A stretch of 64,000 bases of DNA from Hyperoplus lanceolatus. Taxonomy: Eukaryota; Chordata; Actinopteri; Uranoscopiformes; Ammodytidae. The position numbers and the translations under genes were made by a program. Shown one piece after another: positions 15,196-42,685 of the stretch; the first letter of the stretch is position 1, and the number at the start of each line of letters is the position of its first letter. The stretch covers positions 8,167,501-8,231,500 of the forward strand of contig CM049410.1 of NCBI GenBank assembly GCA_026929865.2. The letters are read 5' to 3'. A model generated the notes under the pieces. The model was not told the DNA's origin. It saw only the letters and a list, made by a program, of their open reading frames with translations, and ran no database searches.

Positions 15196-15674
15196 CTAGT
15201 AACACATTCCAAGGAGCAGAATGCACTTGAGGTTGCTGCTTCAAACGTTGAAAATATAAAAAATATCAGAATGATGGTCTCGGTTACTCTGGATAAACAT
15301 TGCTCTTGTGTTTAGTAGAAAGTGGAGTAACATTCTTGTAATGCTGCCCGCCATGAATAGCATTTTTATTTTTTATTTTTTTACAAATTTTAAGTGTTAC
15401 TTTGTTTGGTCTTTAAACTAGATACTTTCTTTAACTCACAGGTATGTTCCTATATTGTGTGGTAGGGTACAATTTAATACTCAACAATGTGGCATTTGGA
15501 AGGAGTGCACACAGCCCAGATGCCTGTAAATAAATTTAAAAAATTAGCGTTACAGTTAATCTCATAGTTATGTTTACAATACTTTTTTTTCCTCGCCCCT
15601 GTTCCAAGAAAAAAGTTTTGCAATTCAATTATTTGGCAAAATTGGTTTATTTTGGTCTAGTTCCATGGGGGTTA

Positions 15675-15696
15675 CCCCCCCCCCCCCCCCCCCCCA
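15675..15696. repeat. Poly(C) run
   Basis: About 22 consecutive C on the plus strand, in the 3' flank of dnase1 A. The corresponding stretch of unit B has been replaced. Confidence 0.85.
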
Positions 15697-15761
15697 CACT
15701 GAACAATCACATTTCATGTCCAGCCTGCGGGCCATGTGGAACAGTTGAGGGAGTCATGGAT

Positions 15762-16517
15762 TCAGGCGGCAGCAGGAGCCTTGACAATCAAGTTCACTTC
15801 CACGGGGAAATGGTCACTGACTGCGTACGCCTGTGAGACAAAGAGCAAAGATTGTAGAACGTTTGGATTCCTGCTTGGCGTACAGAAGATTGCTTCATGA
15901 CACATAAGATTATGTACTGTTAAACTGAATAGGCCATCACTTCCCACCAAAGGACTAAGGACAGTACACAGCAGCACATAACCCTGAGGAAAACAACTTA
16001 TTGTCACTTCTTTATAAACTAGCTAAAATGAGTTAATCAGTGACCTTTAAAGCTGTTATTCTTTGGACTTTGTCACCGGTAGATTCATATTTAGCAAACA
16101 GACATTAACATAGGATCAATATTCTCCTCTAACTCTTCACCACTAAAATAAATAAACAATATTCCAAAATGTCCGACTGTTCCGGTGTCTTGTTGACAGT
16201 TTATTGGACCTCTGCCTACAACAATAGCAACAGTGATGTCACAATGCACTGACCACACCCCCTGAGTACAGTCCTTCATCACTGCTGCAAGGTGAAAACA
16301 TGGCCGGTGTTAATTGCTCTTTATTCTACTAAATTATTCTTTATGAAGGGAAATATCAAGGAGCATTTAAACTTGAGTTATTTTTTTTACCAGACTTTGG
16401 CTGAGACTCATGTCCGCCATGTAGTCATAGACCTTGGCACTGCCGCGCACCACTCCCTCCATCATGTCAGTAGTGACCACAATCCTGCAAAAACAGGAAG
16501 AGGGATGGAATTAAATA

Positions 16518-16553
<36 letters not shown>

Positions 16554-19500
16554 ATGAATATGCCGGTATTCCCTTCACCAGTTAAAACACCCCTGAATTA
16601 ATATCAGGACGTTTCCATGTAAATATAGCCCCCCAAGTCTATTTGTTCCTTGAATAAACCTGTTCCACTGTAAAGTTTATGTGTTCATTGACCATCACCC
16701 TTCAACGTGGAAAGAAGGACCAAAGCCGATACACACAATTCCCAAAAGGTTTTACTTTTCACCAAAAACCTTCACACCTTTTAATATTCTAAAGGCTCTG
16801 GTTTAAAGCATGTGACCCTTTGACTTCTGCTCTGCCTATCTCCAGATCTCCCCCTGTTTTGTCCCTTAATGACACATACAATGTCTCTTCTAATTGATCC
16901 TAGGTTAAAGCAGCAACGAGTAACATTTAAATATCTTTTAAACAGCCTCATGTTTCCTCTCATAATCATAAATTACCTTTAACAGCAAACGAGACCATCT
17001 GTGCAAAGAAAGACTTTTTTGTATAGTTTTTATTACTGCATTTGATCTGGTCGTACACCCAGTCCGATTTTCGGTTCACGCGTGCATGCTTTATGGTCAC
17101 ATATCCGTATTGGTCGCAGATTTCAGTGCGGCGCAGGAACGCGATTTGAGAAGCCTATGGCTCCAGGTGAGGGAAGGGGAGCGGGAGCCTTGTTTGAGAC
17201 AGTTGTTTGTTCATAATGACTGATAACGGGGCTGAACCATCAAAGAAAAAAAAGAAAATGCAATGAAGAAAAGCTAAAAGGGAGAGTGATAGGCGGGGCG
17301 GGGAGGGCGTTGCCAAGCAACGTATACACGATTTCACGCAGCGAACCTAGACTGCAGTGTTTACTCCTAAATGAATGAGCGGTAGCCTACTAAAACAAAG
17401 TTTACTTTGCCTCACCAGCATCATCAGATGACCATTATTCATCTGAAATAGTCATTATTTACAACATAAACACATTACCTCATCGTGATCCATACTAACT
17501 AACTGCCATCTCTCGTTCATTCGCTTGGTGTGAGGACACGGACTCGTTCAGCTCCGTGAGAGGTGACAATGCATCAACTCATTGCAATCAGGTGTGTTTA
17601 GCACTTACTGCCATTAGTTGATGCTGTGTCACCCATAGACTCACAGAGCCGAAAAGAGTCCGGTGCCCTCCACACTTTCAACACACGGACACGCACCATA
17701 TTGCTTCCTGATTATTTGAATCTTGCACTCCCTGCACGAGCTAGCAAACAGCTTCACGACAGCTGGCGTCGTTAAAATACTACCGCATTTGTTCAAAGGT
17801 GTCGCCAACGTGCCGACTTACTCGTAGTGGCTTTAAGTCCAGATTTCAGACCTTTTTCCTAGATAAGTTTTTAGAAAGGAGGAGATTAGATAATGGGTTT
17901 TAATTATTCTGGTGGATGAATACCTTACGTTACCCCTGACTTCAAAAGACTATCGTTAAGTCCTCACTAAGTTCATACACCTGGATGAGCTAGGCCAGTA
18001 GATAAATGCAATTACCTCCTATTTCAAAGAGTGTGTTATGGGATGTGTATCCTTAATTATCAGTGGTGTTGCCGTAGACTTTAGACTTTATTGTCCCCAA
18101 GGGGAAATTCTTTTTCACTTCACATTACATTTGAGGGCCGCACGCCAACAGACAAGACAGATGGACAACAAACACAACAAAATAAACATGCATACAGAAT
18201 ATATAGACAGAGTGGGACTGGGGTGATTTTATCTTGGCCTTTTGTTTAGTGTAGGTTTGAATTGCTTACCTCAGGAGCGCTGCAATCTCTTTAAAGAAAA
18301 ACCCTAATAAGGTCCTTGTTCCCAACTCTAAACTAAAAATCAGGCACAGGATTTATAGGTTTTCAAGAAATTTTATTCAACCAATATAAAAAGATTATAC
18401 GTTCACTATATAGAAAGAAAATATAATATAAAATGAAAGGAAGGAAAATAAGTACCTACACTCCCATTTATGTGGTTAATATATGTAGATAAGTATAAGA
18501 CTTAGCTTATTTGTTTTATGTAGCCTAATTTGTTCACATTGAATTTAGTTCATGAGTTTTCTCGTTCTCAAATTTCAAAGTTTGTCCACTGTTTACACAA
18601 CTTTAAATATTCTCTGAGTTTATGGCCGAGCTTTCACCAAAGTCATATTAATTTGAATTTCTTCAAACTCTTATAACAATGGTGATTTTGCGACACAAAG
18701 AGTCTGGAAAAAGTTGGTTCCACAGCTTTAAAACCTTGTTGATCCACAAGAGATCCTATTCGGAGCGCTATCAAGTATAAAAGTGTATCCACTGTTTACA
18801 CAACTTTAAATATTCTCTGAGTTGATGGCCGAGCTTTCACCAAAGTCATAGAAATTTGAATTTCTTCAAACTCTTATAACAATGGTGATTTTGCGACACA
18901 AAGAGTCAGGAAAGGTTGGTCACAACTAGTGTTGTTTTTGGCGTCCTGTTTTAAGTTTAGTTTTAGTCTAGTCTTTGTGTCAAATTGTCATTTTAGTTTT
19001 TATTAGTCTTAGTCACGTTTAAACTCTTTTTAGTCTAGTCAAGTTTCAGTTGACTAAAAGTCTTGAGCTTTTTAGTCTGCTCTTAGTCAGAATGATCTGG
19101 GACTATTTTCGTCTAGTCTTAGTCAACAAAAGCTGATGACATTTAAGTCTAGTCTTAGTCAATGACTTTTGTATTTTAGTCTTTTTAGTAATGCAATTAT
19201 ACCCAGTTAATATAGTACAATTACCTAGTATAGTACAGCCAAAATCAAAATGTTCTTTAAGTCCCCCATTTCACAAGTCAGACAAGGTTATCTTAGCTTA
19301 TTATATTATTTTCACCTTATAGACTCAAGAATACATGCAATACCAGACACGGAAGACGCTCTGATTGAATTTACATCATATTTATTTGAGCTACCAAACA
19401 TGTAAGAATGCCGGATTCCTCAACCTGAACAGCAGTCTGGTGGAGCTCGGACAGCTTCTCTTTGTGTTTCAAAATCTCCTGTCTAATGACGTACATTTAT

Positions 19501-20688
19501 ATAAAATAAATAGGCCTAAAAAAAATAGCTTCAAATGACAATGCCAGAAAAAAATGTACATTACATTCAAGTTTAATTAAGAGAAACAATGTGCTTGAAT
19601 GCTAGAGCTACAATAACAGGGGTATAATGACCGTTGCTAAGGACCTACGTCATAGTTTTGATGGATAGACGTCCACAAACAGGGCTACTACTCGTTCAGA
19701 AAACAAGGAATACTTTTTCAACATGACTTTGCATGTATCAGGAGAGCAGGGAACACAGGAGTAGTGTTGTTTTTGGCGGCCTGTTTTAATTTTAGTTTTA
19801 GTCTAGTCTTTTTGTCAAACTTTAATTTTAGTTTTTATTAGTCTTAGTCACGTTTAAACTATTTTAAGTCTAGTCAAGTTTCTGTCGACTAAATGTCTTG
19901 AGCTTTTTAGTCTTCTCTTAGTCAATATTATCTGTGACTATTTTCGTCTAGTCTCGTCACTGTCACGTGAAAAAGGTTAGTTGACGACGATATTTAGTCA
20001 TACATTTTGTTGACAAAAACAACACTAGTCACAACAGCTCAAAACTTCAACTCGATGCCATTCCGCAACCTGGTTCATCAATTAATTCCTATTAGTAACC
20101 CAAATGTTTCCTTACCAATCTTCTCAGAAAAAAGAAGAATTGGTTCAGAGCTTCACCCTCTTCTCTAGAACAAAAAATTAACAGCCCTCAATTTTTCTAA
20201 GTATTTTGCACTCAAAAAGATTCAGAGTGTTTCTTTCGAGTTTTTCTTCTAAGTCTTTTGTCTATGCTAAAAGAACAAAAAAGTGCAGCCCTTCTTGCTC
20301 AAAACCCTGGCTTTATATAGTCTGAAGACAGAGAGAGTGGGTGTGTGTATTAGGAGGGGAGAGGGTGGGGGAAAGATGAGGGTGTGTGTGTGTGTGTCCA
20401 GCTCAAGGACCCACTGCCTCCCTTGTCTCTCTCACCCCTGACCGGTCCCAGGACAAGCCCAGGCATGCCTTTTCAGAGAGGCCTTAGGAATTCACAATTA
20501 TGTATATATTTCAGGATAAAAACTTGAAAACACTTTTAGTGATTCTACCTTAATATTAAAGGTCACTTGTTACTTTGCTTGTCTTATTCAAAATATCATA
20601 CTTTTCCATACGAAAACAAGAAATATACATTTCCCCTTCACCTAAGACCAAGATATGTGCAATGAAAAGTTGCAATATTCTTGCCTAT

Positions 20689-20758
<70 letters not shown>

Positions 20759-23342
20759 TGTGAGTGTGTGAGTGTGTGAGTGTGTGAGTGTGTGAGTGAG
20801 TGAGTGAGTGAGTGAGTGTGTATGATTGTGTACCTGTCGTAAGGACAGTCGGAGTTTGACACCGTTGTGTCAGCGTCGTTGGTGATCAGCCAATGGAAGC
20901 TCTTGTCGGTGAAGAGGCGGATCTTTGGCCAATCATAGCGTCTCACATAACTGCAGCCTGCGTTGAAGTCACCCAGCAGCAGAATGTCCTGTATGACAAA
21001 GGGAGAGTGCAATGGTTTAACCACTCTGATCCCCATCTATCCATCCATCCATCCATCTATCTATCTATCTATCTATCTATCTATTTATCTATTTATCTAT
21101 CTATCTATCTATCTGTCTGTCTGTCCGTCCGTCCGTCCGTCTGTCTGTCTATCTTAATAATTGTATATCTATCAGTCTGTGTCTGTCTGTGTGTCACTGT
21201 CTATCTAACTATCTTTGCACATTTTCCCCCTAAATAATAATTAAGAGAATTTTACATTGGTGTTCCAGCGGTTGCGGACATCAGCCACCACATCATAGAG
21301 AGCATTGACTCCCACCACAGCAGAGTCTGGAGAGGTGTGCTGTGGGATCAGGACAAATTTCTCCAAAGCTGGAACATATAGGGAGGGAGGAAGGAGGAGT
21401 GGATGGCAACAAGTTACTACATTTCAAATGTTAGCAGGACAGGACTGTTTTGCTGCGACATCCTCTATGGTAGTAAGTCAACCATTTTTAAAGTGGCATC
21501 AGTTCTCACGTGATGACCTACTATGTACATTATGGTAAAATGGTAAATGGACTCCACTTATATAGCGCTTTTCCCTGGTCTTTCACAGACTCAAAGCGCT
21601 TTACATTGTTGTGTACACATGACCTACTATGTACATTATGAGCAACACTCATCATTTACCGGTGTATTTGGAGGAGAACATGACGACAAAGGGCTCTCTG
21701 CTGAAGATGTCTGTCCTGTCGTTGTAGGTGTAGTTTTTAACCACGGACACAGTCTGCTCCCTGAACAGGAAAGATAAACATTTTTACTGATGATCCTTTT
21801 ACATCAGTAGGATCTTTAAAGGTGCTACGAGAAAACTTTTTAATATTTCTGAAACAGTCACATTTTTCCTCTGGTGATCATGAATGACATGTAACAGCAA
21901 ACATGACCATCAATGCAAAGAATTATATTTTTTGTAGTTTTCTTAATGCCTTTGTCATGGATACACTCACCCAGGAACAATAACTGGTATGGTAAAAACA
22001 CTACTGCTTTTGTCCAAAGGCGGTGCAAGAATGAATCCAAACTGAAAGTCCCTCAGAGCACCTTTAATGCTCTACATGCTACTTTACTTGTATTTACACA
22101 AGAAATGGATCTTATAGTGATCAGAGGAAAGAGAAAGCGCAGAGCTGATGAAAATAAAGCTCTGAAAAAGAGAAATATTTCTGTTTGTGGTTTGCTGATG
22201 TGGGGCTGGTTTTGCCTTTGTGCGTACCTGTAGAGGAAGAGATATCTCTCCTTATAGGTCGAGCGACCCAGAGGCTCACTGACGACGTGACCGTACCTGA
22301 ACAGATTGGTACCTCTGGGAAAACACACACACACACAGAGACATATATTTGCACAGTGTATATGAAAGGCATTGTTTTTATGATTTATCGTAAATCATAA
22401 TGAGCTACATGACTCAATATTTTTCTACAAACTTCACCACATTGTGTGTGTGTAATGATGCAGTGTATTCTCTAATTGAGGTGTGCGGTTAGTCTCACTT
22501 GTTGACATGCTCCATGAGTCTTTTGGTTGCAGACAAATCAGAGTCTCTGACCTCCTGGATGAGTATGACGTCATAGCGGTGGACAATCTGAAAACCAAAA
22601 ATCAACAAATAGTCACGTTATTCTTTTTCCCAGCATAAATACACAGTATGTGTCCATTATTGTTCATTGTTATTGGTCTGTGTCCATTATGGTACAATTA
22701 GTGAAGAGGCACTCCACTAACTTTACACATAAAAGCTCACTGGTCAATGGGAAGTACTAGTCAGCCTGTGCACAGTTGACTCCTGTGTCTATGGAGGAGA
22801 ATAATATCCTCTGGGTTATAAACTGGGGACATGGGATTTGAGAGTCATGGGCATTTACCATGCAAGAAGGGTCTGAAGAAATTCTCAAATGTCTAATGAT
22901 GCATTGTGGGAAATGTAGGCTCTGGTTTTTGCAGCTTGACCTGTAAGGACTTAAATTGAAAGCAGCCTCTTCTCTATGGAGGTGGTGAAACACAAGAATA
23001 GCTGGAGTGCCCCTCTGCACAATACAATATTCAAACTAAAGTTGATCCATTATTATATTTCCTAATGTGCTACCAACCTATTTCAATTGAAGGGATGCCA
23101 AATATCCGTCATGCATATCGCCTTTATTTCAAATATTAGGTATTTGTGATGAGATTCAATGTAATAAAAACATAAACAATGGATGCATGAATTCAGTTTC
23201 AGACCGTGCTGATGATGTTCATCAGAGTTGCGTTAGAGGACTTCTTGTCTCCAAATGACTTGATGTTGAAGGCACCAATCAGCAGAGAGGAGGACAGATG
23301 CAGCAGGGCCAAAAGCAGCCCCAGAGCACATAGCAAACGCAT
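15762..23342 (-). CDS. dnase1: Deoxyribonuclease I, copy A, 8 coding exons
   Basis: Secreted Ca2+/Mg2+-dependent endonuclease that nicks double-stranded DNA. In gene order the coding exons are 23205-23342, 22499-22587, 22228-22314, 21660-21760, 21256-21368, 20834-20988, 16391-16484 and 15762-15830; they join in frame to 281 residues (human 282). The N-terminus [19 protein letters not shown] is a signal peptide. IQEVRDSD holds the metal-binding Glu, PQHTSPDSA a catalytic His, GDFNAGCSY the Asp-Asn pair, DCPYDR the catalytic Asp and SDHFPVEV the second catalytic His. The two Cys of GCSY and DCPYD would form the conserved disulfide; the small CxxC disulfide of mammals is absent. SNAT and NYT are possible N-glycosylation sites. 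The start codon directly follows a splice acceptor, so a non-coding first exon is expected. The sixth intron (about 4.35 kb) is inflated by insertions. The gene appears intact. Confidence 0.95.
16911..17840. mobile_element. MITE with TTAAAGC-type termini
   Basis: The left end GTTAAAGCAGCAACGAGTAA (16911) and the right end TTACTCGTAGTGGCTTTAAG (ending near 17838) form an imperfect inverted repeat with TTAA at each border. There is no transposase. Confidence 0.5.
18580..18920. repeat. Direct tandem repeat of ~145 bp
   Basis: The segment beginning TCCACTGTTTACACAACTTT near 18585 is repeated from about 18787 with few changes, through TTTGCGACACAAAGAGTC. The period is about 202 bp. Confidence 0.75.
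18927..20027. mobile_element. hAT-type element with 8-bp target duplication
   Basis: Ends TAGTGTTGTTTTTGGCG and CAAAAACAACACTA are inverted. GTCACAAC flanks both sides (18919-18926, 20028-20035). The interior carries many TTTTAGTCTAGTC motifs. A second copy of the left end begins at 19763, so the element contains an internal partial duplication or a nested relative. Confidence 0.7.
20692..20756. repeat. (GT)n microsatellite
   Basis: About 32 GT units followed by GTGA-type derivatives to about 20820, close to the exon 6 splice donor of dnase1 A. Confidence 0.9.
21040..21160. repeat. (ATCT/ATCC/GTCT)n tetranucleotide repeat
   Basis: Runs of ATCC, ATCT, GTCT and GTCC in the intron between dnase1 A exons 5 and 6. 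A shorter ATCT tract occupies the same position in copy B (36444-36476). Confidence 0.9.
21818..22068. mobile_element. MITE in dnase1 A intron 3 (older than the duplication)
   Basis: TTAAAGGTGCT at the left end and AGAGCACCTTTAA at the right form short inverted termini. The same insertion is at the same intron position in dnase1 B (37178-37427), so it predates the duplication. Confidence 0.6.
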
Positions 23343-24046
23343 CCTGCACAACAGAGGTTAAGACAAAAAACCTTTTAAAAAAACACCACTAACGACATGA
23401 CTGTTACAGCAATTTAGAATTAGAATCCCAAATCTTGATTATTTGACATAGAGACAGTTAGAGTGGTCTAATAGTTTGCAGGGGCTGTGCTGTTATCCTG
23501 CAAGTCACACACTGTGGGAGCTAGAGACGGTCTCATCACCTGCGCCACCTGGACACATGAGCACAGGCCCTGATGCTGGCTGTTTGTTTAACTGCACTTG
23601 GACATGCCAGTTGGGCCGAGGTTGTAAAAGAAAATTAGGACATTGAAGGCAGAAGCTGTAGTGTGGGCATTTCTCTGTTATGGTAATCCTGCTCACACTG
23701 CCGCTGTGTGCTTCATGGTGTCAGCCAGAGTAAAATGAGTGACATACAGCACCGTATTTGACCTTAAAGAGAAATGGAATGAAATATGAAGGAGACCCTA
23801 TCACGCTAAACCACAGAGGTGTGTAGTATATTGTTTTTAACAATTCCTCCATATTACTTGTGCTGTTTTTATGTGTGTAAAGAAGAGTCAAGAGGTGCAT
23901 ATCTACCTGCTTTTTGAGAGTCTCAGCGGTTGGAGAAGTTGCACCTGTTACAAGCAGAGAACAGAGCCTTTGCTTGTGTGGAAGGGCTACAGGCAGATTT
24001 TCTGATCGCATTGACCGATAGTGTCTCTCGTAAGGTTTTTATTTAC

Positions 24047-24125
24047 CTGTAAGAACATGTGACCAGGTCTGGCTGAGGAGGGGTGGAGAGAGGAAGTGTG
24101 TTGTGTGATGGAGGTCCTCAGTACA
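24047..24125 (-). other. Candidate non-coding first exon of dnase1 A
   Basis: On the minus strand CACATGTTCTTACAG is followed by the donor GTAAAT at 24046-24041, and the coding exon begins right after an acceptor at 23343. The same sequence and donor are kept upstream of copy B at 41413. The 5' end is arbitrary. Confidence 0.4.
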
Positions 24126-24184
24126 AAGGATTTTTTGTTCATTAGGGCTTGAATTTTATTTAGTCCAGGACTAGGCCTAATCTA

Positions 24185-27011
24185 CAGTGGAGGAAATAAG
24201 TATTTGATCCCTCACTAATTTTGTAAGTTTGCACACTTACAATGAAATCAACGGTCTATAATTTTAATGCTAGGTTTATTTATTAACCCTTGTTGGCAAG
24301 TACAGATGTTAGACGTGTCTTGTAGTTGATGACCAGGTTTGCACACATCTCAGGAGGATATTTGGACCACTCCTCTTTGCAGATCCTCTCCTAATCTTTA
24401 AGGTTTTTTAGGCTGTCACTTGAGCTCCCTCCACAGATCTATTGGATTAAGGTCCGGAGACTGGATAGGCCACTCCATGACCTTAATGTGCTTCTTCTTG
24501 AGCCACTCCCTTGTAATGTAATGTAATGTAATGTGCTTTATTTATACAGCCCTTTACAACAGTCCTTTCGGTGTACCAAAGTGCTTTACAAGAGAAGTAA
24601 ATAAAAACAATTTAAAAAAACAAAAATTAAAAATACATCAAAATCAAATAAGATAAAATACAACAAGATAAAATCAAATAAGATAAAATCAAATAAGATA
24701 AAATCAAATAAGATCAAATAAGATCAAAATGTCATCATACTACTGTGTATTAAAAGCCATCCTGAACAAATACGTTTTTAGCTTGGATTTAAAGAGGCCC
24801 AGGTCAGAGATAAGACGCATATCCGTGGGGAGCTTATTCCAGAGCCTGGGGGCAGCAACAGAGAAAGCTCGGTCACCCCAGCACTTGTATCTTGACCTGG
24901 GCACTTCCAGCAACAGTTGATCGGTGGACCTCAGGGCTCGACCAGGATTTCAGATGGTTAAAAGCTCAAATAAATATGGTGGGGCGAGGCCATTAAGAGC
25001 TTTAAAAACAAAAAATAAAAGTTTAAAATCAATTCTAAAAAGGACAGGAAGCCAATGAAGGGAGTTAAGAACTGGTGTGATGTGCTGCCGTCTGTTAGTG
25101 TTAGTTAAAAGACTTTTTTGCACCAGTTGCAAGCGACTTAGCGACTTTTTAGAGACGCCAACATAAAGTGCATTGCAGTAGTCCAGCCTTGAACTTATAA
25201 GAGCGTGGATGGCTCTCTCGAGGTCACAACGGCTTAAAAACATTTTGACTTTTGCCGCAAGACGTAGCTGGAAAAAGCTTGTTCTTACAACATTTGCAAT
25301 TTGTTTGTCAAACCTAAAGTAGCTGTCTAATGTAACTCCCAGATTTTTGACAGTTGGAGACATTTTTGAGGACAAGATGCCCAAGTCAGCCGTCACAGTA
25401 TCCCCAAACATGATACATTCGGTTTTTTTCTCATTTAAATTAAGAAAATTTTGGGCCAACCAATGCTTAATGTCGACAATACAATCCAACAAACATTGTA
25501 CACTGTTATTGTTTGGCCTCACTGGCAGGTATATTTGCAAATCATCTGCATAGCAATGAAAAGAAAGGTTGTGCCTGGCTATAATTGACCCCAGCGGTAA
25601 CATGTACAATGAAAAAAGGATAGGGCCAAGAATAGATCCTTGTGGGACTCCACAGGAGAGAGGAGCAGTGGAGGAGGACAGGCCACCAACCATGACAGAG
25701 AAAGTTCTACTGGACAAATAAGATGAAAACCACTTCAGTGCAGTGCCACGGATGCCAACATAATTACTTAGCTGTGACAGGAGGACTGAATGGTCCACCG
25801 TGTCAAAGGCTGCTGTGAGGTCAAGCAGCACTAAGACAACGGGGCACTTGGCATCCACGGACAGAGCAATATCATGGCCCTTGTTGCCTTTGCTGTATTT
25901 TTAGAGTCATTGACGTGCTGGAAGACCCATCCATGACCCATTTTTACAGACCTGGCTGAGAGAAAGAGGTTGTCACCTTGTATTTCATGGTACATGGCCC
26001 CATCCATATTTCTTTTGATGCAGTGAAGTCCACCTGTCCCCTTAGCAGATAAACACCCCCAAAGCATAATGCTTCAATCTCCATGCTTGCCTTTGGGGAT
26101 GGTGTTCTTGGGGTCATAGTCAGAATTCCTCTTCCTCCAAGCATGGTGAGTGACTATGATACCAAAGAACTTGATTTTGTTCTAATCTGACCACGTCACC
26201 TTCTCCCAAGCATTCTCTGAGTTGTTGAGTTGTTCATTGGCAAACTTCAGACGGTTCTGTACATGTCCCTTCATGAGCAGGGGGACCTTACGGGCACTAC
26301 AGGATTTCAATCCATTACGGCATAGTGTGTTACCAATGGTTTTCTTGGTGACTGTGGTCCCAGCTGCTTTGGGATCATAAACAGGCTCCTCCCGTGTAGA
26401 TCTGGGCTGATCCCTCACCTTTCTCATGATCATTGATACCCCACGAGGTGCGATCTTGCATGGAGCCCCAGACAGAGGGAGATTGATGGTCATTTTGTGT
26501 TTCTTTCATTTTCGAAAAATCGCACCAACAGTTGTCTCCTTCGCACCCAGCTTCTCACCAATGATCTTGTAGTCTGTTCCGGCCTTGTGCAGGTTTACAA
26601 TCTTGTCCCTGATGTCCTTAGACAGCTCTTTGGTCTTGCCCATGATGGAAATATTGGAGTTTGATTTATTGACTCTGTGGACAGGTTTATTTTATACAGG
26701 CAACAACTTGAGACAGGTGTGTTTTATACAAGAAACTAGTTGAGATTAGGAATACTTTTTTAAAGCACGAGGACTAATCTGTGGGAGCCAGAATTCTTTA
26801 TGGTTGGTAGGGGATCAAATACTTATTTCACTCAATGAAATGCAAAATAATTTATATCTTTTTTCTAATGTGATTTTCTGGATTTTCTTTTTGATATTCT
26901 GCCTATCACTGTTAAAAGAAACCTAGCTTGAAAATGATAGACCGCTCATTTCTTTGTAAGGGGGCAAATTTACAAAATCGGTGAGGGATCAAATACTTAT
27001 TTCCTCCACTG
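24185..27011 (-). mobile_element. Tc1-like transposon, interrupted by a LINE
   Basis: Perfect or near-perfect termini CAGTGGAGGAAATAAGTATT at the left and AATACTTATTTCCTCCACTG at the right are flanked by TA (24183-24184, 27012-27013). Unit B has the empty site near 41684. The minus strand encodes Tc1 transposase fragments: the DNA-binding and central part at 26182-26493 and the ...[10 protein letters not shown]... part at 25831-26067. The rest continues beyond the nested LINE, where the minus strand at 24513-24480 reads the Tc1 EWLKKKH-type segment. Confidence 0.85.
24514..25877 (-). mobile_element. L2-type LINE, 5'-truncated, nested in the Tc1 element
   Basis: The minus-strand frame 25858-24950 encodes a non-LTR reverse transcriptase fragment with LLDLTAAFDTVDHSVLL, GVPQGSILGPILFSLY and the catalytic FHCYADD motif, in the style of the L2 clade. 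The 3' end carries tandem TTACA units (plus-strand TGTAA, 24513-24532). CCCTTG on both sides (24508-24513, 25878-25883) looks like a target duplication. The element interrupts the transposase frame of the surrounding Tc1 element. Confidence 0.8.
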
Positions 27012-32153: not shown

Positions 32154-32612
32154 CTAGTAACACATTCCAAGGAGCAGAATGCACTTGAGTTTGCTGCTTC
32201 AAACGTTGAAAATATAAAAAATATCAGAATGATGGTCTCGGTTACTCTGGATAAACATTGCTCTTGTGTTTAGTAGAAAGTGGAGTAACATTCTTGTAAT
32301 GCTGCCCGCCATGAATAGCATTTTAAATTTTTTACAAATTTTAAATGTTACTTAGTTTTCTACAGGGAAACAAGGTGTGTGATCAAATTGTATTGATCTG
32401 GGAACCAAAATATAATTTAAACTAGATACTTTCTTTAACTCACAGGTATGTTCCTATATTGTGAGGTAGGGTACAATTTAATACACAACAATGTGGCATT
32501 TGGAAGGAGTGCACACAGCCCAGATGCCTGCAAATTAAAATTAGCGTTACAGTTAATCTCGTAGTTATGTTTACAATAGGTTTTTTTTTTTTCCTTGCGC
32601 CTGTTCCAAGAA

Positions 32613-33870
32613 CAGTCGCCAGACCTCAGTCTGAAGGGGGGCATATGAAATGCATAGGGGGGCACAATTATTATTAGTCTACAGTACGTATATTTTTAAT
32701 AGTCCTATACTCTATTCGCGCAGCACGTAATCATCACGTTAAACTAACCAACAGCGGTAGTCTAGCCTATAACATCAGTCCTCATAATCTAAAGCAATAG
32801 GCTTACATTACATAGAAGCAATGTTATGAATATCCATAAAACACTTGACTATTCAACATATTAGATGTAGCCTAACACCAGACGCATATTTCAAACATTG
32901 CATTTTAAAGCAGTCAACAGAGGGATATGCATTGCCATTATACACACACACACACACGGTAGCCTACTTTGAGTGGAGGCAGGGCTGTGCTCTCTCCAGT
33001 CCCTTCTATCAGTACAGCGGGAGGCGGCGTTTCTCCGTGCTCAACCTCCTCTTCAACATATATTTCGGCCTCCGGGTTCAAAGCAGCCAGTGCGCCAATG
33101 AGCTCGCTACTGCGCTCTCCAAAACGCGCATCCATCTCTCCTTGCACAGCATCAATAACACTGTAAAATACTCTTGAACTCAGTCTTTTCGTCTATGTCA
33201 CTTTCTGACGGACCAACTCTTTCCTCAACTGCAAATCCGCGGAGGTTCTTGTGAATTGTGCGTCTTCTCTTGCTTGGACCGGGGTCGGTCTCCGGCACAG
33301 CCTTGATGGCCGTGGCTGGAGGAGCGCAAAGTTCCCACAGAGCAAAACTGTGGCTTTACGCAATCAGAAGTGTCACCGCGCTGAACAAGTCCATCATTTC
33401 AGATTGTAGTCTGTCATGCGGCTCGAAAAGTGACAACAGTTTGACGATCCGATTTGGCAGAGGAGACTGTTGGTGGGCTTTTCAACCGTTACCGAATATC
33501 GATTATGATGAACTAGAAATGAAATAGTAAGCCGGCGAAAACTCATCCAGCTTCACTTTCAAAATGCGCGGTAACTGTTGAGCGGCTGCATTGACGTATT
33601 ACGTAGGCCTACGTAGCCTTACTTTCTTTTCAGTGTAGACAGACTCCCATCAATCAAACAAAATCACACTATTGTTTATTTATATTTTAAATGTATTGAT
33701 GATAAAGAATGCAACATTATTATTTATCAACACAAAATTAGCTACTATGATAGTATAAAATAAAAATTAAAGTAATTTTTTTTTTAGAGATCTGTGCCCC
33801 AAGTGGGGGGGGCACAAGCATTTCTGGGGGCGGGCCCGGCCCCCTATGGCCCGCCCATAGCGACGGGTAT
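32613..33870. mobile_element. Unclassified insertion in the 3' flank of dnase1 B
   Basis: Compared with unit A, the sequence after TGTTCCAAGAA is replaced by about 1.26 kb that ends about 40 bp beyond the dnase1 B stop codon. It begins CAGTCGCCAGACC and ends near GCGACGGGTATGCTG, with G-rich GGGGGGCACAA motifs near both ends, recalling hAT-type termini. Several short frames are present, but no transposase was recognised with confidence. Confidence 0.5.
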
Positions 33871-33908
33871 GCTGCAGGGCATGTGGAACAGTTGAGGGAG
33901 TCATGGAT

Positions 33909-34680
33909 TCAGGCGGCAGCAGGAGCCTTGACAATCAAGTTCACTTCCACGGGGAAATGGTCACTGACTGCGTACGCCTGTGAGACAAAGAGCAAAGATT
34001 GTAGAACGTTTGGATTCCTGCTTGGCGTACAGAAGATTGCTTCATGTCACATAAGATTATGTACTGTTAAACTGAATAGGCCATCACTTCCCACCAAAGG
34101 ACTAAGGACAGTACACAGCAGCACATAACCCTGAGGAAAACAACTTATTGTCACTTCTTTATAAACTAGCTAAAATGAGTTAATCAGTGACCTTTAAAGC
34201 TGTTATTCTTTGGACTTTGTCACCGGTAGATTCATATTTAGCACACAGACATTAACATAGGATCAATATTCTCCTCTAACTCTTCACCACTAAAATAAAT
34301 AAGCAATATCCCAAAATGTCCAACTGTTCCGGTGTCTTGTTGACAGTTTGTTGGACCTCTGCCTATAACAATAGCAACAGTGATGTCACAATGCACTGAC
34401 CACACCCCCTGAGTACAGTCCTTCATCACTGCTGCAAGGTGAAAACATGGCCGGTGTTAATTGCTCTTTATTCTACTAAATTATTCTTTATGAAGGGAAA
34501 TATCAAAGAGCATTTAAACTTGAGTTATTTTTTTTACCAGACTTTGGCTGAGACTCATGTCCGCCATGTAGTCATAGACCTTGGCACTGCCGCGCACCAC
34601 TCCCTCCATCATGTCAGTAGTGACTACAATCCTGCAAAAACAGGAAGAGGGATGGAATTAAATTGTGCCTGTGTGTGTGT

Positions 34681-34733
<53 letters not shown>

Positions 34734-36443
34734 TGAGTGTGTGTGTATGATTGTGTACCTGTCGTAAGGACAGTCGGAGTGTGACACTGTTGTGTCGGCG
34801 TCGTCAGTGATCAGCCAATGGAAGCTCTTGTCGGTGAAGAGGCGGATCTTTGGCCAATCAGAACGCGTCACATAACTACAGCCTGCGTTGAAGTCACCCA
34901 GCAGCAGAATGTCCTGTATGAGAAAGGGAGAGTGCAATGGTTTAACCACTCTGATCCCTACCTAGCCATATACACTCAAAAAAAATATAAACGCAACACA
35001 TTTGTTTTTGCTCTTAAAGATCTAAAATTCATTCCAGATACACAATATTACCATTTCTCTCAAACATTGTTCACAAATCTGTCTAAATGTGTGATAGTGA
35101 GCACTTCTGCTTTGCTGAGATAATCCATCCCACCTCACAGGTGTGCCACATCAAGATGCTGATCTGACATCATGATTAGTGCACAGGTGTACCTTAGACT
35201 GTCCACAATAAAAGGCCACTCTGAAATGTGCATTTTTTTGCTTTATTGGGGGTCTGGGGACTCAGAACCAGTCAGTATCTGGTGTGACCACCATTTGCCT
35301 CATGCAGTGCAACACATCTTCTTCGCATAGAGTTTATCAGATTGTCAATTGTGGCCTGTGGAATGTTGGTCCACTCCTCTTCAATGGCTGTGCGAAGTTG
35401 CTGGATATTAGTGGGAAGTGGTGCACGCTGTCGTATACGCCAGTCAAGCACATCCCAAACATGCTCAATGGGTGAGTATGTCCGGTGAGTATGCTGGCCA
35501 TGCAAGAACTGGGACATTTTCAGCTTCCAAGAATTGTGTACAGATCCTTGCAACTTGGGGCCGTGCATTATCTTGCTGAAACGTGAGGTGATGTTCATGG
35601 ATGTATGGCACAACAATGGGCCTCAGGATCTCATCACGGTATCTCTGTGCATTCAAAATGCCATCAATAAAATGCACCTGTGTTCTTCGTCCAAAACAGA
35701 TGCCTGCCCATACCATAACCCCACCACCACCATGGGCCACTCGATCCACAACATTGACATCAGCAAAGCGCTCACCCACACGACGCCACACACGCTGTCT
35801 GCCATCTGCCCTGAACAATGTAAACCGAGATTCATCCGTGAAGAGAACACCTTTCCAACGTGCCAGACGCCATCGAATGTGAGCATTTGCCCACTCAAGT
35901 CTGTTACGGCGACGAGCTGGAGTCAGGTCAAGACCCCGATGAGGACAATGAGCATGCAGTTGAGCTTCCCTGAGACGGTTTCTGACAGTTTGTGCAGAAA
36001 TTGTTTGGTTATGCAAACCAATTCTTTCAGCAGCTGTCTCAGTGGCTGGTCTCAGACGATCTTGGAGGTGAACCTGCTGGATGTGGAGGTCCTGGGCTGG
36101 TGTGGTTACACGTGGTCTGCGGTTGTGAGGCTGGTTGGATGTACTGCAATATTCTCTGAAACGCCTTATGGTGGAGAAATGAACATTCAATGCAGGAGCA
36201 ACAGATCTGGTTGACATTCCTGCTGTCACCATACCAATTGCACACTCCCTCAATGCTTATGGCATCTGTGGCATTTTGCTGTGAGACAAAACTGCACATT
36301 TCAGGGTGGCCTTTTATTGCGGACAGTCTAAGGCACACCTGTGCACTAATCATGATGTCAGATCAGCATCTTGATGTGGCACACCTGTGAGGTGGGATGG
36401 ATTACCTCAGCAAGCAGAAGTGCTCACTATCACACATTTAGAC

Positions 36444-36476
<33 letters not shown>

Positions 36477-39400
36477 ATTGTATATCTATCTGTGTCTGTC
36501 TGTGTGTCACTGTCTATCTAACTATCTTTGCACATTTTCCCCTAAATAATAATTAAGAGAATTTTACATTGGTGTTCCAGCGGTTGCGGACATCAGCCAC
36601 CACATCATAGAGAGCATTGACTTCCACCACAGCAGAGTCTGGAGAGGTGTGCTGTGGGATCAGGACAAATTTCTCCGAAGCTGGAACATATAGGGAGGGA
36701 GGAAGGAGGAGTGAATGGCAACAAGTTACTACATTTCAAATGTTAGCAGGACAGGACTGTTTGGCTGCAACATCCTCTATGGTAGTAAGTCAACCATTTT
36801 TAAAGTGGCATCAGTTCTCACGTGATGACCTACTATGTACATTATGGTAAAATGGTAAATGGACTCCACTTATATAGCGCTTTTCCCTGGTCTTTCACAG
36901 ACTCAAAGCGCTTTACATTGTTGTGTACACATTCACCCAATCACACTCACATTCATACATCAATAGCAGCAGCTACCACGTAGGGTGCAAGCTATTATGA
37001 GCAACACACATCATTTACCGGTGTATTTGGAGGAGAACATGACGACAAAGGGCTCTCTGCTGAAGATGTCTGTCCTGTCGTTGTAGGTGTAGTTTTTAAC
37101 CACGGACACAGTCTGCTCCCTGAACAGGAAAGATAAACATTTTTACTGATGATCCTTTTACATCAGTAGGATATTTAAAGGTGCTACGAGAAAACTTTTT
37201 AATATTTCTGAAACAGTCACATTTGTCCTCTGGTGATCATGAATGACATGTAACAGCAAACATGACCATCAATGCAAAGAATTATATTTTTTATTGTTTT
37301 CTTAATGCCATTGTCATGGATACACTCACCAAGGAACAATAGCTGGTATGTTAAAATCACTACTGCTTTTGTCCAAGGAGGGTGCAAGAATGAATACAAA
37401 CTGAAAGTCCCTCAGAGCACCTTTAATGCTCCACATGCTACTTCACTTGTATTTACACAAGAAATGGATCTTATAGTGATCAGAGGAAAGAGAAAGCGCA
37501 GAGCTGACGAAAATAAAGCTCTGAAAAAGAGAAATATTTCCATTTTTGGTTTGCTGATGTGGGGCTGGTTTTGCCTTTGTGCGTACCTGTAGAGGAAGAG
37601 ATATCTCTCCTTATAGGTCGAGCGACCCAGAGGCTCACTGACGACGTGACCGTACCTGAACTGATTGGTACCTCTGGGAAAACACACACACACACATACA
37701 TATATTTATACAGTGAAAGGCATTGTTTTTATAATTTATCATAAATCATAATGAGCTCCATGCAGTGTATTCTCTTCACGAGGTGTGTGGGTAGTCTCAC
37801 TTGTTGACATGCTCCATGAGTCTTTTGGTTGCAGACAAATCGTAGTCTCTGACCTCCTGGATGAGAATGACGTCATAGCGGTGGACAATCTGAAAATCAA
37901 CAAATAGTCACGTTATTCTTTTTTCCCAGCATAAATACACAGTCTGTGTCCATTATTGTTCATTATTATTGGTCTGTGTCCATCAGTGTTAATTTCGTAG
38001 GTTAAGACTATAACGAAAAATATTCGTCAACGAACCTTTTTCATGCACGAAAACTAAATAAAAAGGCAGATATGATGACGAAGACTGAGACGAATATAAC
38101 TGACACTATAGTCTACGAATAGGAACGAGACGAAACTGTTAGAGCGGGACGAATGGAGAACAGATCCAATCAGAACTGTGGGACAAGTTGGGAAGAAGCA
38201 GTGCAAAACAGCAAATGCAACCCTGTGTCGGTGAAAATCGACGGGAGGACGCGCCAGTGTGAGCGGGTGGAGTGAGCCGCTGTGCAGAAAAACTCTGTGG
38301 TTTGATGGACAAAATGATAGTCAGGGATATCCTGCCCGTTAACGTTGTCTAGGGGAATGGCTAAGTTCCGCGATCTGTTTGTAGTAGGCTGTGTCTCGAG
38401 CTTGAACACACAGAGCCATGTCCCCAAACTGACTGCGCAACTATATAGGAAATGAACCGTTAGTTTCTGTTTTCACCCGAGTAAGTTTACAATCAACTCC
38501 GACGCATGGACAGCGTTCAATTAAAACCTCTAATTTTATTGTCAAAAAGGCTTTGATGCAAAAGAAGTCTAAACACACACAGCTGCAGCAGTGTTGCTTA
38601 AAGGAAAGTGCTGTGTGCTGCCCTGCTGCCCAGGGGCGGCCTTAATGATCTCGGGGCCCGTTTCAAGACCTAGTGTGGGGCCCCCCACTTATTTTTTGTA
38701 TTTTCTGTATTTTCTATTTTTTATAAATGATGCTTGTGCATGCTCCCCGCAAAAAGAAAACAGATTTTGAAATCCAGTTGGTTCATATACGGATCATGAG
38801 ATAATGGGCCCCTGGGCACAGGCTCTTAAAGCCCCCCGTCCCGCCTATCCAGTCAGGTACACTGATTTTATGTGAGATTATTACGAATGAAATAGAATAC
38901 ATGTTTTGTATTACAACCATTACATCTGTGTATGTATTGCATATTCAAAACTTAATACCATTCAATGAAGAAAAACACTTAGTCGACAAAGTCTGCTGTA
39001 GATTTAGTCAACTAAAATCTTCTTATATTTAGTAGACTAAGACTAGACTAAGACTAAAAGATTTCAGATGACTAGAATAGGACTAAGACTAAATGGTGTG
39101 ATATTCAGAAGACTAAGACTAAATCAGAATGTGGTGCCAAAATTAACACTGGTGTCCATTATGGTACAATTATACAGCAGTTGGTTCTGAGCGAGTGATT
39201 TGATTGGACGAGAGACCTTCTGAGCGTTCTGAAGGAGTGCTGATATTAGCGAACAACATCACTCGGGACTGTTCACCAAACTGTAGACCAACTGTCAAAA
39301 TCACTCCGCGGCTCACTGATGAGCCGGAGCTTCACTTGTATGTTATCTGTGTGTGTGTGACTCAGGTTGACTGTGGCGAGTCTCTCCCCTGTGAGAGGGC

Positions 39401-40706
39401 ATCGCTGCCACACACAGACACACAGACAGAGACAGTGTGCGGTAGTCGCTCACACTCACGTTACTGAAGACAGCAATAGTGTGTGGAGATAAACTCAGGC
39501 TGCTGAATAATACGAGCGCAGCATAGCTTTAGACTAGCCTAGCTTTCCCACCTCATTGTATAACGTTACTTCCCCCGGGCCGACATACACTCATAAACTC
39601 TGGGAAATGAAGCGTGGGGGTTTGGATTGGGCAGCGGACCTTATTACCAACTATATTAAGATCCGCCGCTCCGTTTCTTTGGTGATTTTTACGGGACATC
39701 GGGCCGCCGTGGTTAATGTTACCAGAGTAAACAAAGTAGGACGAGCTCACTCGCGTAAAGTTGTTGCCTAGCAACGCGCTCCGCTCTGACTGCTGTTGTC
39801 GAACTATTTGTGTTGGCGGAAGCAAATACATTCTTAAATGATTAAAGATAACATTTTAAAGTTAACTTGTGAATTTCAGTTGTAAAACTGCTGTATAAAA
39901 GCAATAGCACACTCGAGGTCGCATGTTGTCGCTCTATATCAGCACTGCTGTGTTTCTCTTCGGCACTCGGCCTGCGGTCTCGTACCTACGACCGAATCAC
40001 AGCAGTGCTGATATAGAGCGACAACATGCTCCCTCTCATGTGCTATTGCTTAATTAGTGAAGGGGCACTCCACTAACTTTACACATAAAAGCTCACTGGT
40101 CATTCAATGGGAAGTACTAGTCACCCTGTGCACAGTTGTATTATGACTCAAGTGTCTATGGAGGAGAATAATGTCCTCTGGGTTATAAACTGGGGACATG
40201 GGATTTGAGAGTCATGGGCATTTACCACGCAAGGAGGGTCTGAAGAAATTCTCAAATATCTAATGATACATTGTGGGAAATGTAAGCTCTGGTTTTTGCA
40301 GCTTGACCTATAAGGACTTAAATTGAAAGCAGCCTCTTCTCTATGGAGGTGAAACACAAGAATAGCTGGAGTGCCCCTCTGCACAATACAATATTTAAAC
40401 TAAAGTTGATCCATTATTATATTTCCTAATGTGCTACCAACCTATTTCAATTGAAGGGATGCCAAATATCCGTCATGCATATCGCCTTTATTTCAAATAT
40501 TAGGTATTTGTGATGAGATTCAATGTAATAAAAACATAAACAATGGATGCATGAATTCAGTTTCAGACCGTGCTGATGATGTTCATCAGAGTTGCGTTAG
40601 AGGACTTCTTGTCTCCAAATGACTTGATGTTGAAGGCACCAATCAGCAGAGAGGAGGACAGATGCAGCAGGGCCAAAAGCAGCCCCAGAGCACATAGCAA
40701 ACGCAT
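33909..40706 (-). CDS. dnase1: Deoxyribonuclease I, copy B, 8 coding exons
   Basis: Tandem paralogue of dnase1 A, same strand and identical exon structure: 40569-40706, 37801-37889, 37587-37673, 37019-37119, 36568-36680, 34759-34913, 34538-34631 and 33909-33977, again 281 residues without stops or frameshifts. Signal peptide, metal-binding Glu, both catalytic His, the catalytic Asp and the disulfide Cys are all kept. By eye eight residues differ from copy A: Ser to Tyr just after QEVRD, Leu to Gln after GTN, Leu to Ser and Gly to Glu in exon 5, and Arg to Thr, Tyr to Ser, Asn to Asp and Asn to His in exon 6. Introns hold a Tc1-like element (34973-36444) and a hAT element (37984-39151). Its 3' UTR differs from copy A because of the insertion ending near 33870. 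It appears functional. Confidence 0.95.
34668..34725. repeat. (GT)n microsatellite in dnase1 B intron 6
   Basis: GT repeat with GTGC variants, filling much of the 127-bp intron. It is the counterpart of the tracts at 16518-16550 and 20692-20756 that border the large block in copy A. Confidence 0.9.
34973..36444 (-). mobile_element. Tc1-like transposon (second family), right end truncated
   Basis: The left terminus CACTCAAAAAAAATATAAAC follows a TA. The inner part of the left end (GTGCACAGGTGT..., GTGCCACATCAAGATGCTGA) is repeated inverted at the right (36300-36444), giving long inverted repeats. The right copy stops at TTTAGACA and runs straight into the intron's ATCT repeat, so about 95 terminal bases are missing. 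It is inserted in the dnase1 B intron between exons 5 and 6 and is absent from copy A. Confidence 0.8.
35272..36253 (-). pseudogene. Tc1/mariner transposase, frameshifted
   Basis: DD34E transposase of the Tc1 type. The long frame 36253-35465 contains the helix-turn-helix region ([20 protein letters not shown]), FTDESRF with the first catalytic Asp and QQDNARPQ with the second. Just after WPAYSPD the frame is lost through a single-base change, and the rest ([14 protein letters not shown] with the catalytic Glu, to the C-terminus GGHTRY) continues in another frame to 35272. Together with the truncated right end, this makes the element unable to move by itself. Confidence 0.85.
36444..36478. repeat. 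(ATCT)n microsatellite
   Basis: Short ATCT tract at the truncated end of the Tc1-like element; remnant of the longer repeat seen at 21040-21160 in copy A. Confidence 0.85.
36845..36995. repeat. Fish LINE 3'-end fragment, shared by both units
   Basis: GGTAAATGGACTCCACTTAT and TCAAAGCGCTTTACATTGTT are recognisable pieces of a common fish LINE tail. The partner in unit A (21540-21625) is shorter, lacking CATTCACCCAATCACACTCA and what follows. Confidence 0.55.
37178..37427. mobile_element. MITE in dnase1 B intron 3
   Basis: Counterpart of 21818-22068, with the same TTAAAGGTGCT/AGAGCACCTTTAA termini and position. Confidence 0.6.
37984..39151. mobile_element. hAT-type element with exact empty site in unit A
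   Basis: Starts CAGTGTTAATTTCG and ends AAAATTAACACTG. GTGTCCAT flanks it on both sides (37976-37983, 39152-39159). Unit A has one GTGTCCAT at the same place (about 22680-22687). An 8-bp duplication indicates hAT. The ends are rich in GACTAAGACTA motifs and there is no transposase. It lies in dnase1 B intron 1. Confidence 0.85.
39175..40054. mobile_element. Unclassified insertion ending in a long hairpin
   Basis: Unit A reads GTACAATTAGTGAAG, whereas unit B has about 880 bp inserted after ACAATTA and resumes at AATTAGTGAAG. The insert begins ATACAGCAGTTGG; AACTGCTGTAT recurs inverted near 39886-39896. The last 150 bp form the hairpin listed separately. I do not recognise the family. Confidence 0.55.
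39900..40051. repeat. Long imperfect palindrome with a 32-bp perfect arm
   Basis: 39921-39952 and 39998-40029 are exact reverse complements over 32 bases, separated by a 45-base loop. GCAATAGCAC (about 39901) and GTGCTATTGC (about 40040) extend the pairing outward. Confidence 0.9.
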
Positions 40707-41412
40707 CCTGCACAACAGAGGTTAAGACAAAAAACCTTTTAAAAAAACACCACTAACGACATGACTGCTACAGCAATTTAGAATTAAAAATATTGATTAT
40801 TTAGTTAAGTTAGCGTGGTGTAATAGGTTGCAGGGGCTGTGCTGTTATACTGCATGTCACACACTGTGGGAGCTAGAGACGGTCTCAACACCTGCGCCAC
40901 CTGGACACATGAGCACAGGCCCTGATGCTGGCTGTTTGTTTAACTACAGGTCGACAAACTGAACATGCCAGTTGGGCCGAGGATGTAAAAGAAAATTGGG
41001 ACATTGAAAGCAGAAGCTGTAGTGTGGGGATTTTTCTGTTATGGTAATCCTGCTCACACTGCCGCTGTGTGCTACCTGGTGTCAGCCAGAGTAAAATGAT
41101 GACCTGCGTCACAGTAACATATAGCACCGTATTTGAGAAATGGAATGAAAAATGAAGGAGACCCTATCACGCTAAACGACAGAGGTGTGTAGTATATTAT
41201 TTTTAACAATTCCTCCATATTACTTGTGCTGTTTTTATGTGTGTAAAGAAGAGTCAAGAGGTGCATATCTACCTGCTTTTTGTGAGTCTCAGCGGTTAGA
41301 GAAGTTGGACCTGTTACAAGCAGAGAATAGAGCCTTTGCTTGTGTGGAAGGGCTACAGGCAGATTTTCTGATCGCGTTGACCGATAGTGTCTCTCAGGAG
41401 GTTTTTATTTAC

Positions 41413-41490
41413 CTGTAAGAACATGTGACCAGGTCTGGCTGAGGAGGGGTGGAGAGAGGAAGTGTTGTGTGATGGAGGTCCTCAGTGCAA
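41413..41490 (-). other. Candidate non-coding first exon of dnase1 B
   Basis: Counterpart of 24047-24125. The minus strand reads CACATGTTCTTACAG followed by donor GTAAAT. The upstream limit is not defined by the sequence. Confidence 0.4.
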
Positions 41491-42315
41491 AGGAATTTTT
41501 GTTCATTAGGGCTTGTTAATATTGATATGAATGATTAATAATACACCTATTGCCTGTCTTTTGGTTCTTCCTCCTACAAGGTAAAACGCATGGGCCGACA
41601 TGGATTAAGCCATTGTACTTTCAATGGACAATCTCCATTCAAAATTCTATTTAGTCCAGGACTGGGCCTAATCCATGTCTGTGAAACTGGCCCATTGTAT
41701 GTTACATTAGTAGTAGAATTGACATATTATACTTTTCTAATAACAATGTTTAACATTGTATTACGTAGTATAATGTTTATTAACTTCTCATTATTGTTGG
41801 ATTTGTATTGTTGGCTCTAACTTGTGGCACTAAGCACATATATGTGCTTATATATATATAAAAAAAACATTTTCTACATGGTTTTCTATTCTAATTTCGA
41901 GCAACTGTAACAAACCGAATTTCCTGCCCAGGGATCAATAAAGTATTTTTGATTCTGACTCGGTTAGTAAAATTGAGAGCAGCTGCCTGGATAAATGACT
42001 TTGCTGCATGCTGGTAATCTAGCAAGTAATCTCAGAAAGATACTTTTACTTATTGCTATGTCTTTCAGAAGCCAAATATACATGTTTACTCTCAAACAAA
42101 CTGTATGGTCCATTGTATTGGACATAGCTAAAACAGGTGTAAAACGTGTAAACAGTGTGTAGAGTGCACGGCATCTGTAGACACATCCAGGCCAGTCATT
42201 CACCAGTGTAGGCAACCACACAGCAAACAATGTCATACTCAGAATACAAAAAAATTATTAAGGCATATGTTGGGTCCTTTTCATGACACAGCTAATTGTA
42301 GATGGACATATAGGC

Positions 42316-42396
42316 TGAGATGTTGTATGGAATGTAAAGCCCACTGAGGGAAATGTCTATTTGTGATGTTGGGCTATACAAATAAAACTGATTTGA
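42316..42396. repeat. Fish LINE/SINE 3' tail, unit B partner
   Basis: Counterpart of 29225-29305, with nearly identical sequence. Confidence 0.5.
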
Positions 42397-42685
42397 TTTA
42401 GATGGTTGTTGGCCACCTTCTGTCTTGTGTCATGATTGAATATGTACCAAGTATTTGAAAAGGACTTACAGTCTAATTAATTAATTTAAGTTAATGTGTA
42501 ACCCCCTTATCTCATGTGCATCTTCCCTTGTATCTGTAGAAGGATGCGCACCAAGTTCTTAATTAGTTTGCTGTATATATCAAATATTTACGCTGTTATT
42601 TGTTTAAGTTGTTCTTGTGGTCGGAATATGTCACTAACTGTAATCAACTTTAAATTATTTAAAATATTGCAGACTTTGTTTAAGT

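Follow-up and report, generated by a model that had tools for sequence, protein, structure and literature searches.

In amniotes, DNASE1L2 arose by tandem duplication of DNASE1, and the DNase1L4 and DNase1L4-2 genes of bony fishes, which belong to the same gene family, are also a tandem pair, although the product of an old event (PMC9208542). Here we describe what is very probably an event of this well-known kind, that of lineage-specific tandem duplicates such as DNASE1L2 in amniotes, in the fish Hyperoplus lanceolatus. Two consecutive dnase1 genes, referred to as A and B, are located on the minus strand and flanked by eci1 and naa60 in a 64,000-bp stretch, here called the window, which covers positions 8,167,501-8,231,500 of the chromosome-sized contig C16 (CM049410.1) in an assembly of 807 Mb and 527 contigs. 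It is very likely, in our judgement, that they arose when one fish dnase1 gene between eci1 and naa60 was duplicated in tandem, head to tail, in this lineage, with the mechanism proposed below. According to the original prediction, a single DNASE1 at this site is regarded as the usual vertebrate condition; this is right only in part, as amniotes carry the second gene DNASE1L2 from a tandem duplication of their own (PMC9208542). A recent tandem duplicate of a fish dnase1 was not met in the open literature that was searched, and this absence is weak evidence.

The fish locus resembles that of DNASE1 and DNASE1L2 in amniotes in that DNASE1 was likewise duplicated in tandem on one strand with eci1 as a neighbour. 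We take human DNASE1L2 to adjoin ECI1, in which case the fish pair would occupy the site where amniotes made DNASE1L2. The C101-C104 loop is lacking in DNASE1L2 (PMC9208542) and both fish copies are likewise without the C101-C104 pair; however, 5 residues including this pair are missing from A and B relative to bovine DNase I, whereas DNASE1L2 shows a fifteen-codon deletion (PMC9208542). Since the loss of C101-C104 is common to both copies, it predates the fish duplication. The fish event is independent and far younger, as A and B are 97.2% identical in protein sequence (8 differences in 281 residues), compared with 57% and 48% identity between DNASE1 and DNASE1L2 in chicken and human, respectively (PMC9208542). 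As for the DNase1L4 type, the L4-like paralogues on contigs C2 and C10 of the H. lanceolatus genome lack Cys173, whereas A and B keep it.

Exon-by-exon rebuilding recovered all 8 coding exons in each copy, with equal lengths in A and B (138, 89, 87, 101, 113, 155, 94 and 69 nt), consensus acceptors, GT donors and a single 846-nt frame with its stop, encoding 281 amino acids (Table 1). Thus, the claim of two intact copies with eight coding exons and exact splice sites was confirmed. No third dnase1 copy was found by tblastn in the window, at which two extra rows were at chance level (E 7.7 and 8.8). The N-terminus of both proteins is, as judged by eye, a hydrophobic and signal-like segment of 19 residues. 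Each copy is likely to have a further, noncoding exon upstream, since the ATG lies 1 base past an acceptor-like CAG and the copies share an upstream donor, AAAAAGCAG/GTAGAT. A and B have about 0.8 kb of sequence before the ATG in common, and the insertions further upstream differ. The 3′ ends differ as well, the nearest AATAAA being 116 nt past the stop in A and 234 nt past it in B, where it sits inside the B-specific 1,259-bp stretch.

Table 1. Positions in the window of the dnase1 genes, the duplicated units, the copy-specific features and the neighbouring genes.
Feature	Position	Strand	Evidence or remark
dnase1 A coding region	15762..23342	-	gene rebuild; Pfam PF03372; phmmer to DNase I chains E 9e-84
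dnase1 A exons	23205-23342, 22499-22587, 22228-22314, 21660-21760, 21256-21368, 20834-20988, 16391-16484, 15762-15830	-	
dnase1 B coding region	33909..40706	-	gene rebuild
dnase1 B exons	40569-40706, 37801-37889, 37587-37673, 37019-37119, 36568-36680, 34759-34913, 34538-34631, 33909-33977	-	
Duplicated unit A, eci1 side (16,867 bp)	15196..32062	-	collinear with unit B
Duplicated unit B, naa60 side (10,529 bp)	32154..42682	-	collinear with unit A
Junction filler between units	32063..32153	.	gapless
Longest identical A/B stretch, exon 1 and flanks, 371 columns	23033..23403 (B 40397-40767)	-	candidate gene-conversion tract
Exon 6, most diverged exon	A 20834..20988 (B 34759-34913)	-	10/155 nt vs 7/691 in other exons
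B-specific 1,259-bp stretch, 3′ untranslated side	32613..33871	.	replaces 114 bp of A bearing A's nearest AATAAA
Tc1-type transposon in A, TA at both ends included	24183..27013	.	Pfam HTH_Tnp_Tc3_2, RVT_1; terminal repeats; insertion site
Tc1-type transposon, intron 5 of B, not in A	34971..36444 (start approximate)	.	Pfam HTH_Tnp_Tc3_2 above cut-off
Presumed hAT-like insertion, intron 1 of B	37984..39151	.	8-bp target-site duplication GTGTCCAT; clean empty site in A
eci1 exon-bearing frame	12627..12878	+	Pfam ECH_1; top PDB match mitochondrial 3,2-trans-enoyl-CoA isomerase
naa60 exon-bearing frame	48235..48522	+	top PDB match N-alpha-acetyltransferase 60, E 3e-47

The duplicated units are collinear throughout, and several of the long matched blocks have an E value of 0.0, which is not chance. 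On the other hand, the idea that the units can be aligned from end to end holds only for their order, as only 5,292 columns were aligned (193 mismatched columns and 29 indels lie within the 11 blocks) and the remainder of both units is copy-specific insertion, deletion or microsatellite, consisting partly of transposons. More than 1 kb is extra in one copy at seven loci, with 4,268, 2,876, 1,550 and 2,473 bp in A and 1,259, 1,496 and 2,068 bp in B. The Tc1-type element of A encloses the reverse transcriptase frame of an element resembling a long interspersed nuclear element (LINE) and is missing in B, while that of B has terminal repeats at 35080-35237 and 36288-36444 and a DDE_3 match slightly below the Pfam cut-off. 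The insertion in intron 1 of B is taken here to be hAT-like from its 8-bp duplication and its ends. A 950-bp inverted repeat, 98.5% identical and ending in CGACTCGA-type repeats, was also observed, one arm lying upstream in the eci1 region (9403-10350) and the other in unit A (30900-31849); it is presumably a recently active DNA transposon.

In noncoding sequence, A and B differ at 176 of 4,446 columns (4.0%), with 90 differences in the 1,734 columns of the 5′ flank (5.2%), and in the coding region at 17 of 846 nt (2.0%). If fish sequence changes neutrally at 2-8e-9 per site and year, the age is 3.4-13.4 million years by the 5′ flank and 2.5-10.2 million years by all noncoding sites. The fairly recent tandem duplication that had been proposed is supported, with recent standing for about 3-13 million years from the 5′ flank. 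These ages would be underestimates if gene conversion occurred.

A false duplication, in which the assembler joined two haplotypes of one dnase1 locus end to end, is very improbable. Misjoined haplotype contigs that overlap would likewise yield the unit-unit order, so that the structure alone is not decisive, and a window with no N is still compatible with a misjoin. However, 4.0% noncoding substitutions, 29 indels inside the aligned blocks and seven loci with more than 1 kb extra in one copy, set against about 5.3 kb of shared sequence, are far above the heterozygosity of fishes, for which about 0.1-2% served as the yardstick of allelic divergence. Moreover, the gapless junction bears a transposon end of about 84 bp (around 32061-32144) that the outer ends do not have. 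When 1,454 bp of the unit were searched against the assembly, with all 3 candidates scored, the matches were the piece's own position, its counterpart in the other copy (93%) and a 70-bp stretch of C7, with no additional full-length copy on the 527 contigs. Among the 40 of 1,183 candidates that were scored for the naa60-side flank, its full match was solely at its own locus, although the short repeat with which it ends is dispersed. The locus thus shows collinear units on the same strand, divergence beyond this allelic yardstick and copy-specific insertions with empty sites, as a tandem duplication would have it.

The sequence at the junction derives from a dispersed transposon family, of which it is a solo end. 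At least 41 genome matches to it were found with 40 of 1,640 candidates scored, 2 at the dnase1 locus and 39 elsewhere, and several of the ends in this family form facing pairs 1.4-1.9 kb apart (for example C2:21037519/21038953, C10:14273996/14275569 and C1:25669585/25671474), with one further facing pair 0.4 kb apart on C19. At the outer boundaries of the tandem, no such end was detected, the matches there being at most 12 bp long. An origin by recombination, with one copy of this transposon on either side of the old unit, was considered and is for this reason unsupported.

On their neighbours, similarity and exclusion, dnase1 is the best reading of the identity of both genes. PF03372 was matched at 68 bits (copy A scanned), and the DNase I catalytic set is found in both copies. 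They showed 52-53% identity to bovine DNASE1, 50-51% to human DNASE1 and 45-46% to human DNASE1L3, and phmmer with copy A gave 284 bits to DNASE1 vs 234 bits to DNASE1L3. In a tree of 113 columns, A and B were placed with bovine and human DNASE1 (support 73/93); their grouping with DNASE1L3 was disfavoured yet not rejected (p-AU 0.089). Both copies have Cys at 173 and 209, with Gly at 4 and Tyr at 32, and thus no C4-C32 pair, which marks L1, L1L and L3 (PMC9208542); this cysteine pattern disfavours the L1, L1L or L3 type. The signal-like N-terminus, judged by eye, disfavours the L4 type, as DNase1L4 and DNase1L4-2 have no signal peptide. DNase1L2 is an amniote gene with a fifteen-codon loop deletion, described as absent from fishes and amphibians (PMC9208542), while A and B are fish genes with a 5-residue gap relative to bovine. 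The C101-C104 pair, on the other hand, is typical of DNase1 'with few exceptions' (PMC9208542) and Cys101 occurs in 73% of 30 DNase I sequences (PMC2987838); its absence from A and B departs from the DNase1 orthogroup in a feature that is not strict.

A whole-genome protein search returned 22 exon-level matches, of which 16 fall in the two genes of C16. The other 6 belong to five diverged paralogous loci, of which C10 carries four and C2 one, and no other contig had a match. The two L4-like paralogues, on C2 and C10, have Gly at 173 and form a separate supported pair. Another divergent paralogue of the DNase1 family (C10:31721000-31729500, around 3972-4130) has a long branch and, where bovine DNase I has Asn170, carries His instead of the Asn seen in the other nine rows. 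The PF03372 search of the genome (150 of 2,987 candidates scored) was swamped by long-frame matches, which we infer to be LINE endonucleases.

The catalytic and metal residues N7, E39, E78, H134, D168, N170, D212 and H252 are kept in A and B, as are the Ca ligands D201, T203, D99, D107, F109 and E112, the C173-C209 pair and the N18 glycosylation motif, whereas the N106 glycosylation site is gone from both. In Ca site I, Ser replaces Thr at 205 and 207 in both copies, with Asp at 208. Five of what we take to be the eight actin-contact positions are changed in both (44, 46, 53, 65 and 114). Such changes agree with the view that actin inhibition is a trait of placental mammals (PMC9208542). Retention of the catalytic residues, as originally predicted, thus holds at the positions checked; a change at a Mg ligand of A and another at the DNA interface of B had gone unremarked.

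The first of these changes is at residue 213, which corresponds to the Mg site III ligand Asp198 of the bovine enzyme and is Asn in A and Asp in B. The position is Asp in 7 of the 8 comparison sequences and Glu in the other, and is identical in 97% of 30 DNase I sequences (PMC2987838). Cations are described as binding more weakly at site III than at the others, and where its second ligand, Asp172, would be, A and B both have Gly, as do 63% of DNase I sequences (PMC2987838); therefore, the effect of D198N may be small. The second is at residue 62, bovine Ser43, one of 24 listed DNA-interface residues (PMC2987838), which is Tyr in B and Ser in A. Ser was found there in 5 of the 8 comparison sequences, two having no data, and the C10:16M paralogue has Val in its alignment to DNASE1L3. 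At residue 158, A has Gly where all 8 comparison sequences have Glu. By eye, A seems to have the derived state at 158, 194 and 213 and B at 62 and 140, with neither side clear at 80, 192 and 221, and hence no clear asymmetry; in the tree, the protein branch of A was 0.046 vs 0.0063 for B. D198N in A and S43Y in B are candidates for functional divergence, which is not to say proof.

Between the copies, dS was 0.048 and dN 0.012, with a dN/dS of 0.26 (Fisher test of N vs S, p 0.006). It is unlikely that one copy of a real duplication is heading to a pseudogene, with its frame open and its function or expression lost, as, with 5′ flanks that differ by about 5%, neither copy shows a stop, a frameshift or a splice loss, the net dN/dS is below 1 and the checked catalytic residues are all retained. 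This is so despite the longer branch of A, its Asn at a site III ligand that is 97% conserved (PMC2987838) and its Gly in place of a Glu kept in all 8 comparison sequences, and despite the Tyr of B at the DNA interface and B's lack of the poly(A) signal nearest to the stop in A. The idea of dosage gain or of subfunctionalisation into digestion and immunity, as first put forward, is so far conjectural. Sub- or neofunctionalisation already established, with two enzymes unlike in their tissues, their need for metal or their binding of DNA, is rather doubtful. Such an outcome would be in line with the fact that each copy is changed at a position marked as functional (D198N and S43Y), with the excess divergence of exon 6 described below and with the unlike 3′ ends and distal upstream insertions; however, merely 8 of 281 residues differ, the affected Mg site is the weaker one with its Asp172 position already Gly (PMC2987838), and the copies share the 0.8 kb that precedes the ATG.

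Divergence between the copies is patchy. Exons 1, 4 and 8 are identical, and the longest identical run, of 371 columns, had a p of 0.0002 in 5000 permutations. Exon 6, in contrast, holds 10 of the 17 coding differences (Fisher p 0.0002, about 0.002 when corrected for eight exons), and its synonymous sites differ far more than those elsewhere (6 of 33.5 vs 3 of 159.7, p 0.001), while its divergence is not significantly different from that of noncoding sequence (p 0.14). Positive selection on exon 6 is not needed, as synonymous sites are raised too. Five of its differences are clustered in codons 188-194, which may be one small mutational event, and without this cluster exon 6 has 5 of 134 vs 7 of 691 (p 0.03).

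Partial gene conversion between A and B is the favoured explanation of this patchiness, in which exon 6 would be isolated by the 4.3-kb difference in intron 6 and the 1.5-kb insertion in intron 5. It is possible, though the less probable case, that there was no gene conversion and that the identical stretches are conserved regulatory sequence under a varying substitution rate; the 371-column run does include the signal-peptide exon and splice signals. Nevertheless, clustering persists in the noncoding columns alone (longest run 233, p 0.011; window heterogeneity of divergence, chi-square p 0.006), and a rate that varies with regulatory constraint has to face the excess at the synonymous sites of exon 6.

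Besides the two structural points given with the misjoin, several observations weigh against the duplication and mechanism that we prefer. The branch joining A and B to mammalian DNASE1 is supported at only 73/93, and a dN/dS below 1 between copies could reflect constraint on one of them only. Exon 6 was picked from eight exons after inspection of the data, and the identical stretches could be conserved regulatory DNA, the run test on noncoding columns being moderate. In addition, the Tc1-type element in A (24183-27013) has ends whose terminal repeats are only 88% alike, more diverged than A is from B. This fits oddly with its having been inserted after the duplication, for which 4-5% divergence gives the date, unless these repeats were unlike from the outset or conversion lowered the divergence between A and B.

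Under the tandem duplication, which we still favour, both copies would code for one type of secreted enzyme, a Ca/Mg-dependent DNase I, and at least one copy, probably both, would be under purifying selection. Occasional gene conversion may homogenise the copies except near exon 6, which would be boxed in by the differing insertions of its neighbouring introns. The initial effect was probably an extra dose of DNase I, and mild divergence would have followed, with D198N in A, S43Y in B and differing 3′ ends. As far as the sequences suggest, this early divergence of A and B may become functional.

Regarding the neighbouring genes, the naa60 frame has only a weak Pfam match, below the cut-off and to a different family. 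Window positions 3096-6700 (+) carry a gene for a rhodopsin-type G protein-coupled receptor of the ghrelin/motilin-receptor type; its frame at 4037-4936 had GHSR and then the motilin receptor as top PDB matches, Pfam 7tm_1 is present in 3096-3386 too, and the end near 6700 is taken from the frame only. At 45413-45600 there is a short dispersed repeat with at least 39 further genome copies at 94-99% identity (40 of 1,183 candidates scored), which is probably a young short interspersed nuclear element. A scan of viral contigs for relatives gave 9 stretches matching the pattern, none of which was confirmed.

A more far-reaching view, which we put forward tentatively and hold to be unlikely in full, is that the fish pair is an independent repeat of the amniote DNASE1/DNASE1L2 event at an ancestral eci1-naa60 locus, on a dnase1 already without C101-C104, with reciprocal divergence at Asp198 in A and Ser43 in B and with exon 6, which holds the site I/III region, shielded from conversion by flanking transposons. 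If true, the locus behind the amniote DNASE1L2 was duplicated again in a fish. The pair is also a compact case where transposon insertions may limit gene conversion between duplicates. If real and expressed, A and B would be a young natural pair of DNase I enzymes only 8 residues apart, two of these at positions with a proposed role, so that the effects of Asp198 and Ser43 would be measurable in a near-identical background.

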